Assembly (NCBI GenBank): GCA_012520575.1
Contig: JAAYOB010000010.1
Span: 1 to 54,463 of the forward strand
Origin: Candidatus Stramentimicrobium fermentans
GTDB taxonomy: Bacteria > Atribacterota > Phoenicimicrobiia > Phoenicimicrobiales > Stramentimicrobiaceae
DNA length: 54,463 nt
Direction of reading: 5' to 3'
The notes below the pieces were generated by a model. The model saw only the letters and a program-made list of their open reading frames with translations. It ran no database searches and had not been told where the DNA came from. Shown piece by piece: positions 1-54,463 of the stretch. Both the position numbers and the translations under genes were made by a program. Numbering within the stretch: the stretch's first letter is position 1; the number at the start of each line of letters is the position of its first letter.

Positions 1-96
1 GGAACCGCCTGTTCCCATCCCGAACACAGCAGCTAAGCCCTCCAGCGCCGATGGTACTGCAGGATTACCTGCGGGAGAGTAGGACACTGCCGGGAA
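1..96 (+). rRNA. rrf: 5S ribosomal RNA, 3' part (5' end cut by window)
   Basis: The first ~96 bases match the 3' four-fifths of bacterial 5S rRNA. Recognisable blocks are CCCGAACAC near 19-27, TAAGCCCTCCAGCGCCGATGG near 34-54, and GAGAGTAGGACACTGCC near 75-91. The 5' strand of helix I lies outside the window. The 3' end is estimated, because its pairing partner is missing. No strong intrinsic terminator follows, only a short T run at 97-102, so transcription may continue into the NAD synthetase gene. Confidence 0.93.
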
Positions 97-17060: not shown

Positions 17061-17274
17061 ATTCCTCCTTAGGGCTGTGGTTGAAAGTCGATGCCAGCCG
17101 CAGGCAAAACGACCCACGTAAGGTAACGATTATTAGTTACTGAGCATGGTGCGGTTTTGGAGTAAGTCCTGCCTTATTATAGGAATATAATAGGAGAAGA
17201 GTATTAGTGAAAAGATAGCGAGGCTCTCTGCAGGCGAATGTGGGGTAAAAGACCAGGTCAGCCTAAGGAGGGAT
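17061..17274 (+). ncRNA. Structured noncoding RNA, probable raiA-motif RNA
   Basis: Between comF and the RaiA/HPF gene lies a 214-nt element closed by a strong long-range helix. CCTCCTTAGG (17064-17073) pairs perfectly with CCTAAGGAGG (17262-17271). The helix is extended outward by three pairs and inward by CTG/CAG past one bulged G. Inside are nested GTCG/CGAC and TGCC/GGCA helices (17087-17113), GTAAC/GTTAC (17123-17140), and CCTTATTATA/TATAATAGG (17172-17194) with one bulge. No ORF fills it. The raiA motif is a large RNA class known between comFC and raiA in Firmicutes and Actinobacteria. Size and context fit, but identity needs a covariance search. Confidence 0.78.
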
Positions 17275-18070: not shown

Positions 18071-18739
18071 ATGAACAATGTCTCCATAAATAATTTTCGT
18101 AATTTTATCACCTTACCCCAGTCTACTACTAAAATAAAAGAAATTGAAAATTCTATTAATTCTTTAAATGGGGTATTATTTTCCAAGATTGTTTTGGCTG
18201 AGGATAAAGAGATTAAAGAAATTCATATTATTACTAAAGATTTATATAGCCCCAAAAAGATTACCCGTGATATAGAATCTCTCCTAATGGCTAAATATAA
18301 CATTCCTGTAGATTACCGTAAGATTAGTATTGCCCAGGTAGCTGAGGAAAAAAATTATTCTCCTCGCTTAAAGATTTCCGATCTCTCGGTTACTTCTGAA
18401 GGGGAAACCTTGCAGGTAATAGTAAAACTGGAAAATAATAATAAAATTTTCGAGGGAAAGATAAGCTGCATCAACTGGGACAAGAATAGGGAATATATTA
18501 TCACCAGAGCGACATTAGAGGCAATCACTTCTTTTTTAAAAGGACGGGTATTCTTTCAGGTGGAAGAGATTAAAAAAGTATATTTAGAGGATAGGGAAGT
18601 GTTTCTAATTTCAATTAATCTGATTAATGAGCAAGGCAAGGAAAATCTAATAGGTGTTGCCCCGATTGATGATGACCAGCACAGATCCCTGGTTAAAGCT
18701 ATCCTGAAGGCGGTAAACCGAAGAATAGCCTTTAATTAA
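18071..18739 (+). CDS. Conserved protein of unknown function, two alpha/beta domains
   Basis: I do not recognise a named family for this 222-residue protein. It is soluble, with no signal or membrane segment. The N-terminal part (about 20-85) has KEIHIITKDLYSPKKITRDIES and DYRKISIAQV. The C-terminal part (about 100-222) shows a strand-helix repeat: LEAITSFLKG followed by strands, then AILKAVNRRI at the end. It starts 15 nt after hpf with GAGGGAGC upstream, so it is probably cotranscribed with the hibernation factor. Confidence 0.75.
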   Translation: MNNVSINNFRNFITLPQSTTKIKEIENSINSLNGVLFSKIVLAEDKEIKEIHIITKDLYSPKKITRDIESLLMAKYNIPVDYRKISIAQVAEEKNYSPRLKISDLSVTSEGETLQVIVKLENNNKIFEGKISCINWDKNREYIITRATLEAITSFLKGRVFFQVEEIKKVYLEDREVFLISINLINEQGKENLIGVAPIDDDQHRSLVKAILKAVNRRIAFN

Positions 18740-18772: not shown

Positions 18773-18911
18773 ATAGATATAGATAGGTCGGTGATCCTTA
18801 GATAAAACCATTTAAAGGTGAAAATAAGTAGCAGATAGTTTTCTGAATGAGCGAAGCGTAGCGGTTTTTGCTTGTTCTTATTAGAACAAAGAAAAACCGT
18901 GGAGGTGCGAC

Positions 18912-18998
18912 ATGAAAATTAATAAAGCCAAATTAATCAGCTTTTTAATCAGTGTCATGGCCTTGCTACTGGCCGGTGGCGCCAAGTTTAGATGGTAA
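18912..18998 (+). CDS. Predicted 28-residue hydrophobic peptide (leader or small membrane protein)
   Basis: ATG 18912 is preceded by GGAGGTG (18901-18907) at good spacing and the frame closes with TAA at 18996-18998. The peptide begins MKINKAK, then has a hydrophobic stretch (LISFLISVMALLLAGG) and ends AKFRW. This looks like a single membrane helix with a basic N-terminus. I cannot assign a family. The stop codon lies 10 nt before the 3' terminator arm, so a terminating ribosome would touch that arm. Either a small membrane protein or a regulatory leader peptide is possible. Confidence 0.6.
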   Translation: MKINKAKLISFLISVMALLLAGGAKFRW

Positions 18999-19025
18999 AA
19001 ACTAGGGCTCACCGACCTATTTTTT
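18971..19025 (+). terminator. Terminator-like stem with two possible 5' partners
   Basis: The 3' arm TCACCGACC (19009-19017) plus its T-rich tail (TATTTTTT to 19025) can pair with the distant arm at 18786-18794. It can also pair locally with GGCCGGTGG (18971-18979) inside the short ORF, with one C-A mismatch and one G-U pair. Translation of the short ORF would melt the local version. Confidence 0.5.
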
Positions 19026-19046: not shown

Positions 19047-20282
19047 TTGAACCGCAAGCTAAAATTATTTATATTATTGATTTCCATATCCGCTACCGTG
19101 CTTTTTATTTTTTTACTCCCTAACATTACTGCAATTTCTGAAATATGGCTACCCTTCCTGTTTTTTACGATTATTGCAATTATTGCTGAACATAAACCCG
19201 TTGTATTGCCAGCGGGTGGAAATATTACAGTAGCCTTTCCCATTAGCTTTGTAGTAATATTGGTCTACGGACCTGCCATAGCTATGGTTTTAGAATTCTT
19301 TAGTATAATCTGGACCATTTTTAGAAAAAAAGGATCATGGTTTAAAGCCCTATTCAATGCAGCTCAATATTCATTGTCTTCAGGGTTAGCAGGGGTAGTA
19401 TATATATTTACAGGTGGTGTGGTGGGAAAACAAAATTTTGTTCATTATATAATTCCGGCCGCATTATGTGCCTTAACTTATTGTGTAGTTAATACATTAT
19501 TAGTTACTACTGTGATTTCCTTGGATTCGGGAATGAGTCTGGGAAAGGTGTTTAGGATTAATATTAGAGAGGTACTTCCCAGTTACTTGGCGGAGGCGCC
19601 CATGGGCTTTATTATGGCTATTATTTATGTACATATTGGCATTTTTGGTATCCTTCTCTTCTTCTTTCCACTTCTGTTAGCCCGTCAATCTTTTGAGCTA
19701 TATACCAGAATGCGAAAAATTTATTTAGAAACTATTCGCACTCTGGCTGCTACCATCGATGCCAAAGACCCATACACTCTGGGCCATTCCGAGAGGGTAT
19801 CACATTTAGCAGTTGACTTAGCTAAAAAATTAGATTTCGCTGAAACAGACATTGAATACTTAGAATATGCAGCAATTTTACATGATATCGGGAAAATAGG
19901 TATTGCGGACAGTATATTAGGGAAAAAAGATAGACTGACGGATGAAGAATATAAAAAAATAAAAGAACATCCCGTTATCGGAGCAAATATCATTGATTCC
20001 ATTGAGTTTTTGAAAAAATGCTCTAAGGCGGTATTGCATCATCATGAGCGTTATGATGGTAATGGCTATCCCCAGGGATTAAAGGGAGAGGATATTCCTA
20101 AAACGGCAAGATTATTAGCTGTAATCGATGCCTATGATGCGATGAATTCCGATCGTCCCTATCGTAAAAAGCTTTCTCCGGAGGATATTGTACAGGAATT
20201 AAGAGATGAATCGGGCAAACAATTTGACCCGGTTATAGTAAAGGCATTCCTTTCCTTATTACAGGAAAGGAGGATAGGCTGA
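19047..20282 (+). CDS. Membrane HD-GYP domain protein, probable c-di-GMP phosphodiesterase
   Basis: HD-GYP proteins hydrolyse cyclic di-GMP or related cyclic dinucleotides. The N-terminal ~220 residues of this 411-residue protein form about six to eight membrane helices, a sensor region of the MASE type. The HD-GYP domain follows (about 228-405), with HDIGKIG at 279-285, HHHERYDGNGYP at 331-342, and DAYDAM further on. All the metal-binding residues expected of the family appear present. The start is TTG 19047, with AGGAGAA 8 nt upstream. It is preceded by the terminator-bearing leader and overlaps the next gene by 1 nt. Confidence 0.9.
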   Translation: MNRKLKLFILLISISATVLFIFLLPNITAISEIWLPFLFFTIIAIIAEHKPVVLPAGGNITVAFPISFVVILVYGPAIAMVLEFFSIIWTIFRKKGSWFKALFNAAQYSLSSGLAGVVYIFTGGVVGKQNFVHYIIPAALCALTYCVVNTLLVTTVISLDSGMSLGKVFRINIREVLPSYLAEAPMGFIMAIIYVHIGIFGILLFFFPLLLARQSFELYTRMRKIYLETIRTLAATIDAKDPYTLGHSERVSHLAVDLAKKLDFAETDIEYLEYAAILHDIGKIGIADSILGKKDRLTDEEYKKIKEHPVIGANIIDSIEFLKKCSKAVLHHHERYDGNGYPQGLKGEDIPKTARLLAVIDAYDAMNSDRPYRKKLSPEDIVQELRDESGKQFDPVIVKAFLSLLQERRIG

Positions 20283-53869: not shown

Positions 53870-54349
53870 ATGGCTCAAAAAGATAGAGAAGATTACCAGA
53901 TTATTACTGTAAATCGTAAAGCAAGGCACGATTATCATATTTTAGAAACATACGAAGCCGGACTTGTTTTAAGAGGGACCGAGGTTAAATCAATTCGTAA
54001 TAGCCAGGTCAGCATCAAGGAAAGCTATGCTCAATTTAAAGGGGAGGAATTGTTTATTGTTGATATGCATATTGCTCCCTATAAATTTGGCAATAGATTT
54101 AACTTAGAACCGAAAAGGGATAGAAAACTCCTTTTAAATAAGAGAGAATTGGGTAGAATAAAAGGAAATATAGATACAAAAGGAGTAACCGTTATTCCCT
54201 TAAGACTTTACTTTAAAAATGGCTATGCCAAATTAGAAATTGCATTGGCTAAGGGGAAAAAACTTTACGACAAAAGGAGAGACCTGACTGAGAAAGCAAT
54301 AAAGAGAGAATCAGAAAGAGAATTAAAAAATAAAACCTGGGGGCGATAG
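53870..54349 (+). CDS. smpB: SsrA-binding protein SmpB
   Basis: SmpB carries tmRNA to stalled ribosomes for trans-translation. The 159-residue protein has NRKARHDYHILETYEAGLVLRGTEVKSI (about residues 15-42), VDMHIAPY and RDRKLLLNKREL. The lysine/arginine-rich C-terminal tail KKLYDKRRDLTEKAIKRE is present, which enters the mRNA channel. The last codons (GGG CGA TAG) lie inside the 5' end of the tmRNA gene. This is a close physical link between the two partners. Confidence 0.96.
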   Translation: MAQKDREDYQIITVNRKARHDYHILETYEAGLVLRGTEVKSIRNSQVSIKESYAQFKGEELFIVDMHIAPYKFGNRFNLEPKRDRKLLLNKRELGRIKGNIDTKGVTVIPLRLYFKNGYAKLEIALAKGKKLYDKRRDLTEKAIKRESERELKNKTWGR

Positions 54350-54463
54350 GTATCGACAGGGAAGACAGAGGTAAGGAAGGCGGGTCGAGGTTCCTGGTCC
54401 TCGTTAAACACAGGGAAAAACAATAACTGCCAACAATAACGAATTGGCTCTAGCAGCTTAATA
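54339..54463 (+). ncRNA. ssrA: Transfer-messenger RNA, 5' part (cut by window end)
   Basis: GGGGGCGATAGG at 54339-54350, followed by TATCGACAGGG, is the conserved tmRNA 5' end (acceptor stem and D-arm-like region). The tag-coding region follows at 54429. The 3' half with the T arm and acceptor partner lies beyond the window. The 5' end overlaps the smpB stop codon by 11 nt. Confidence 0.92.
54429..54461 (+). other. tmRNA proteolysis-tag reading frame
   Basis: The resume codon GCC opens a frame that reads ANNNELALAA and ends with TAA at 54459-54461. The C-terminal LALAA is the usual degradation signal for ClpXP-type proteases. An alanine charged on tmRNA would precede it. Confidence 0.88.

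Follow-up and report, generated by a model that had tools for sequence, protein, structure and literature searches.

A conserved micropeptide gene enclosed in a covarying RNA element beside a MASE9-HD-GYP enzyme: a candidate peptide-signalling system in Atribacterota and other phyla

The window, that is the whole stretch of 54,463 nucleotides that was analysed, comes from a 1.58 Mb genome of the phylum Atribacterota and contains, in this order, a raiA RNA, hpf, the gene of a 222-aa protein, the region studied here, the genes of a MASE9-HD-GYP protein and of a DUF5317 protein, and secA. The raiA RNA (Rfam RF03072, positions 17065–17270) lies upstream of hpf, 1.5 kb ahead of the element under study; the 222-aa protein (18071–18739), which is kept upstream of the element across Atribacterota, has no Pfam or NCBIfam family over the cut-off. 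The 5S rRNA and the tmRNA are found at the contig ends (window positions 1–95 and 54339–54463), where the assembly probably broke. The features of the studied region and of the two genes that follow it are collected in Table 1. We read the micropeptide gene as the first of a three-gene unit, followed by MASE9-HD-GYP and DUF5317, a reading which is part of the whole explanation proposed below and to which, jointly with the rest of it, we assign an even chance.

Table 1. Position of the RNA elements and genes at the micropeptide locus, in window coordinates.
Feature	Position	Strand	Evidence
5' arm of the long-range closing helix	18783..18794, with bulges to about 18803	+	exact complement of 19009-19020; covariation (alignments A6, A7); own versus swapped arms
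Purine-rich conserved motif GAGCGAAGCGTAGCGG, ahead of and into the hairpin	18849..18864	+	leader comparison
Hairpin, arms CGGTTTTT/AAAAACCG, just 5' of the ribosome site of the peptide ORF	18862..18899	+	invariant among near relatives
Ribosome-binding site GGAGGT of the peptide ORF	18901..18906	+	invariant in near leaders
Micropeptide gene, 28 codons, MKINKAKLISFLISVMALLLAGGAKFRW	18912..18998 (ATG 18912, TAA 18998)	+	38/50 phylum genomes, other phyla, pN/pS 0.11
Codons of the tip KFR (variable) and of the conserved Trp; predicted mature peptide KFRW, by putative cleavage after Ala	18984..18995	+	pN ratio, tip diversity
3' arm of the closing helix	19009..19020	+	same evidence as for the 5' arm
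MASE9-HD-GYP cyclic-dinucleotide phosphodiesterase (predicted), 411 aa, TTG start	19047..20282	+	Pfam MASE9 and HD_5 over cut-off; invariant catalytic residues; AF2 model
DUF5317 membrane protein, 192 aa	20282..20860	+	Pfam PF17248 E 5e-32; invariant motifs; co-occurrence with the peptide

The 28-codon ORF is a real, conserved coding gene under purifying selection. Orthologous loci bear the same tiny ORF, and a profile search with the peptide was positive in 38 of the 50 Atribacterota genomes, at E below 1e-9 and with one copy in each. The in-frame pN/pS was 0.11 among near relatives, 0.20 in distant families and 0.48 in a third group; the two other frames gave values of 1.0 or more in the near and distant families (1.0 and 3.0 in the near group), and in none of the three groups did another frame show a comparable signal. 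Among the 50 genomes, 36 have both the peptide and DUF5317 and 8 have neither, while in all 6 discordant ones a contig ends inside the cassette; leaving these six aside, the co-occurrence has a Fisher p of 6e-9, uncorrected for shared ancestry. In the 8 genomes with neither gene, the enzyme gave matches at the level of the HD domain only. The peptides returned only sub-threshold matches when searched against Pfam, NCBIfam and PHROGs.

In Atribacterota, the message of the peptide is embedded in a structured RNA. The two arms of the closing helix in the window, ATAGGTCGGTGA and TCACCGACCTAT, are perfect reverse complements over 12 bp, for which the chance expectation in 243 nt is about 0.002 by a simple estimate, and six T follow directly after the 3' arm. 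By folding, the whole 301 nt reached −92.4 kcal/mol, versus −63.0 ± 5.4 for the shuffles (z −5.4). In 34 Atribacterota leaders (19 near and 15 distant) a helix, mostly of 13–21 bp, joins the regions before and after the ORF, and the pairing score of each leader's own arms had a mean of 15.2, against 7.9–8.6 (maximum 12.5) when the arms were swapped between the two family groups. In the distant families, two-sided changes were observed in 12 of 15 closing-helix pairs, and the hairpin ahead of the ribosome site is replaced by one with compensatory changes in 4 of 7 pairs; their covariation was reached by none of 500 shuffles, and dropped from 0.522 to at most 0.225 when the partner was slid along. 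Among the near leaders, covariation was seen at 7 of the 19 pairs of the closing helix. The purine-rich motif is near-invariant in the 19 near leaders, and AGCG[AG]AGC occurs in the 15 distant ones. The full AGCG motif gave one match per genome in the genus; it was considered as a site of a trans-acting regulon and rejected, being found in its full form only at the studied locus in each of these genomes. As seen at the locus L025, the 5' arm in distant families can reach into the end of the upstream ORF, so that the element there is intercistronic and not simply a 5' leader.

No Rfam family matched the leader region, either at the gathering threshold or up to E 5, in agreement with an earlier note made from the letters of this DNA, which had recognised no known riboswitch. 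The other elements on which that note was built, namely the 12-bp inverted repeat, the hairpin and the 28-codon ORF with GGAGG upstream, were all confirmed at the positions of Table 1, and its view of a short ORF and a structured RNA ahead of a phosphodiesterase gene is genuine. It had named, as evidence that would count against it, a helix that does not covary or an ORF that is lost in relatives: the helix covaries and the ORF is conserved. The Atribacterota leader is a new structured cis RNA, with compensatory changes and no Rfam family.

The micropeptide family spans at least five phyla: Atribacterota and four or more others. A contig profile search with the peptide alignment of the distant subfamily returned 6 loci, of which the titled ones were all Atribacteria, so that this search alone would have suggested a phylum-restricted gene. 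Other phyla were searched by using DUF5317 as an anchor in 386 genomes, and then in three further phyla, and this exposed similar ORFs upstream of the adjacent HD-GYP gene: MKKLIAKALTLIGSLIALGLAAGASAHWR in Thermus-type genomes (assigned by gene context and by the Thermus control in the DUF5317 search), MKAKVLKALFVLASLLLAGGAHFRW in the phylum of G223 and MKWGARVLAFILSVMVIALTVLADLKWH in the phylum of G062. Two further families with the peptide ORF, G150/G288 and G267, fall outside these three phyla. The four genomes with a solitary DUF5317 gene (L128, L130, L132 and L133) had no such ORF. In a 7.3-Mb genome (L119, reverse strand), a hydrophobic 34-codon ORF without Trp, MKKFEGIKYSRIVINAIIVASVVVALTSGYKLGG, lies between the DUF5317 and HD-GYP genes and is possibly a divergent relative of the micropeptide.

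The gene is repeated at some loci. In G408 (L184:1205–1808), six identical ORFs form a perfect 104-nt tandem array ahead of the HD-GYP gene, and two copies each were found in L120, L123, L179, L181 and L192. The precursor pattern was a hydrophobic ORF of 20–42 codons, with a ribosome site, ending in A-xxx-W-x(0-2). In 941 kb of fetched sequence it gave 90 distinct hits, 86 of them just before an HD-GYP gene, and the remaining four are visibly of the same family, with no unrelated hit; as the fetched loci were centred on these genes, the figure measures specificity within the neighbourhood and not genome-wide rarity. A closing helix was also sought outside Atribacterota and rejected, because own and swapped arms score alike. 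Instead, an ordinary terminator is present between the peptide and the enzyme gene in 16 of 17 Deinococcota-type loci, and thus the peptide can be produced in excess. Only in Atribacterota is the peptide message wrapped in the RNA helix, whose putative role is discussed below.

The precursors, of 25–36 residues, have a common layout: a basic residue, about 17 hydrophobic residues, an Ala, three variable residues, a Trp and 0–2 residues more. The basic residue lies 17 positions before the Ala in all of the 69 distinct precursors, and small residues stand at regular places (Ala −8, Ala −4, Gly −2 and Ala −1); in this set Ala −1 and Trp +4 were fixed by the search pattern, and every family member from independent scans, for which a Trp close to the end was the sole requirement, shows this layout too. 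Variability is highest in the three residues between Ala and Trp: the 69 precursors carry 57 different tips. The ratio of pN in the tip to pN in the hydrophobic part was 9.4 for the near relatives and 2.7, 2.3 and 2.0 in three other groups; in a fifth, Caldisericota-like group it was 0.7, the tip being not faster. It is established that a signal peptidase I site consists of an Ala with a small residue two positions before it. Most precursors have such a residue two before the Ala, and this residue pattern fits a site at which cleavage may occur; the unvarying distance between basic residue and Ala, together with the regular small residues, would also fit a fixed, uncut membrane helix. As a whole, the hydrophobic peptide resembles a bacterial signalling-peptide precursor.

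As for the partner proteins, the catalytic set of the HD-GYP domain (HD, H, HH, GYP, D and the metal-site residues) is invariant in 17 orthologues, and the domain matches solved HD-GYP enzymes; judging from these residues the catalytic motif is intact, as in an active phosphodiesterase, the predicted substrate being a cyclic dinucleotide. The AF2 model of the MASE9-HD-GYP protein has a mean pLDDT of 85. After HD enzymes, its MASE9 half matched in fold the ECF S-components RibU, FolT, BioY, ThiT and CbiM, with target TM-scores of about 0.5–0.64 (about 0.54–0.64 for the first four) and weak E-values (0.09–1.7). S-components bind small ligands from outside, and the size of these ligands is comparable with that of a tetrapeptide. 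The residues E48, N149 and Y180, invariant in the MASE9 half, are candidate ligand contacts. DUF5317, a membrane protein of several helices, carries N-GG-MP, D and S-GD motifs that are invariant, and its fold search gave no match in the PDB. In one of the solitary-DUF5317 loci (L133:4176–5571) a DUF5317-type gene stands directly before a DisA/CdaA diadenylate cyclase-like gene, without HD-GYP, an arrangement which is a second link between DUF5317 and cyclic dinucleotides. A tandem pair of DUF5317 genes is present in several genomes of one family (G420, G421, G428, G432 and G434).

What the computation shows is a translated peptide sequence that is under purifying selection and invariably adjoins the gene of this enzyme; in Atribacterota, a covarying long-range helix closes its message. 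We propose that this micropeptide gene, set in a conserved RNA structure, gives rise to a secreted short peptide that is sensed by MASE9 and tunes the breakdown of cyclic dinucleotides, an explanation for which the case appears to us evenly balanced. The precursor would insert in the membrane so that its basic end stays inside, and cleavage at or near the conserved Ala would leave a short Trp-bearing peptide of about 4–6 residues (KFRW in the window). Once released, this may serve as a signal of the autocrine or quorum type: the S-component-like MASE9 domain would bind it from the outside and so set the phosphodiesterase activity of the HD-GYP domain towards cyclic dinucleotides. A partner role in processing, transport or reception could fall to DUF5317. 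Most likely, the closing helix and the hairpin ahead of the ribosome site uncouple the stability or translation of the peptide message from the downstream receptor genes. The RNA element would be an operon-internal module, setting the expression or stability of that message apart from the enzyme genes, and in the other phyla the ordinary terminator may provide the separation of the peptide from the receptor genes. In its broadest form, the proposal is of a widespread and so far undescribed peptide-signalling system, made of an xxxW peptide (about 4–6 residues) from a 25–36-residue precursor, of an S-component-like domain fused to a phosphodiesterase and of DUF5317 as a third partner, present in at least five phyla including the deep-biosphere Atribacterota and the Thermus group, and provided with its own structured mRNA in Atribacterota; this we put forward tentatively, with a likelihood a little below even.

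The main rival explanation is that the peptide is never cleaved: as a membrane subunit of one helix, it would pack on MASE9 or DUF5317, with a regulating or stabilising effect on the phosphodiesterase. Such a subunit would suit the constant length of the helix, the conserved small residues and the fixed Trp at the outer membrane face, as well as the strict co-occurrence with both membrane proteins. On the other hand, up to six identical tandem copies and the fast evolution of the tip are more typical of secreted signals, and the terminator between peptide and enzyme genes in the Deinococcota-type loci gives unequal amounts of the two products. We judge an uncut subunit unlikely, while giving it appreciable weight.

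The earlier note had proposed a switch in which translation of the peptide, or a ligand, decides between termination and read-through into the enzyme gene, the closing helix being an intrinsic terminator in competition with a pairing inside the ORF. The T run behind the second arm is indeed present in the window, and a run of at least five T occurs in 4 more near relatives, but only 5 of the 19 near leaders have one and it is missing from all 15 distant leaders. Similarly, the 3' arm can pair with 18971–18979 (GGCCGGTGG/TCACCGACC, one mismatch), but covariation is absent from this pairing (score 6.2 for own arms, 6.4 for swapped ones), and no local terminator was predicted. With a T run that lacks conservation and a switch pairing that lacks covariation, attenuation is unlikely as a general mechanism. 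Moreover, the ORF is a conserved gene which keeps the same neighbours in phyla devoid of the RNA helix, and thus it is more than a leader peptide; an attenuator seems to us quite improbable. The strongly conserved hairpin, the AGCG[AG]AGCG motif and the covarying helices would be expected of an orphan riboswitch or a protein-binding RNA, mainly exerting ligand control on the HD-GYP gene and with an incidental ORF. However, the ORF is under strong selection at the protein level and is present without the RNA structure in other phyla, and the structure surrounds the start of the peptide and not that of HD-GYP, which makes this reading improbable. The small size and hydrophobicity of the peptide, and its message paired end to end, also recall type I toxin mRNAs such as hok or AapA, in which a small hydrophobic toxin is encoded by an mRNA closed from 5' to 3'; by contrast, the gene is found here at a single conserved locus in the phylum, with fixed neighbours and catalytic partner genes always present, and a toxin is highly improbable.

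If the secreted-peptide explanation is true, networks of the c-di-GMP type would gain peptide signals as inputs, two uncharacterised families, MASE9 and DUF5317, would acquire a function, and peptide communication would exist outside Firmicutes, in mostly uncultured phyla, where it could be tested in the tractable Thermus. Read more cautiously, the locus still reveals a conserved micropeptide family that had no annotation, together with a new RNA element that covaries. The literature covered, mostly outside subscription papers, had no mention of DUF5317 and nothing treating the MASE9 domain.

Several known systems share single traits with this locus. The raiA, c-di-GMP and other Rfam leaders are likewise structured RNAs upstream of a gene, whereas the leader described here matches no Rfam family. 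The predicted fold of MASE9 may resemble that of the ECF S-components RibU, FolT, BioY and ThiT, with no significant E-value, and MASE9 is fused to HD-GYP. Quorum signals sensed directly by c-di-GMP enzymes have been reviewed for a fatty acid and AI-2 (PMC8846402, 2022): in BDSF-RpfR and in the AI-2-dCACHE diguanylate cyclase an extracellular signal alters a c-di-GMP enzyme, as proposed here, but the passage of that review on these systems names neither a peptide signal nor an S-component-like sensor. Secreted, duplicated, tip-variable propeptides beside their own receptors are found in the RRNPPA systems (PMC9765709). As in SHP/ComS (Rgg/ComR) and Phr/PapR-type RRNPPA systems, a tiny hydrophobic precursor with a variable C-terminal tip, in repeated copies, lies beside its presumed receptor (PMC9765709), and the small ORF next to the receptor gene is under selection at the protein level, one of the marks by which RRNPPA/SHP-like systems are recognised. 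Unlike in those systems, which were described from Firmicutes and have a cytoplasmic TPR regulator, the receptor here would be a membrane MASE9-HD-GYP enzyme, and the peptide has no sequence-family match. Since its neighbour is MASE9-HD-GYP and not a TPR receptor, the locus may at most work like an RRNPPA system, without being a member of that family.
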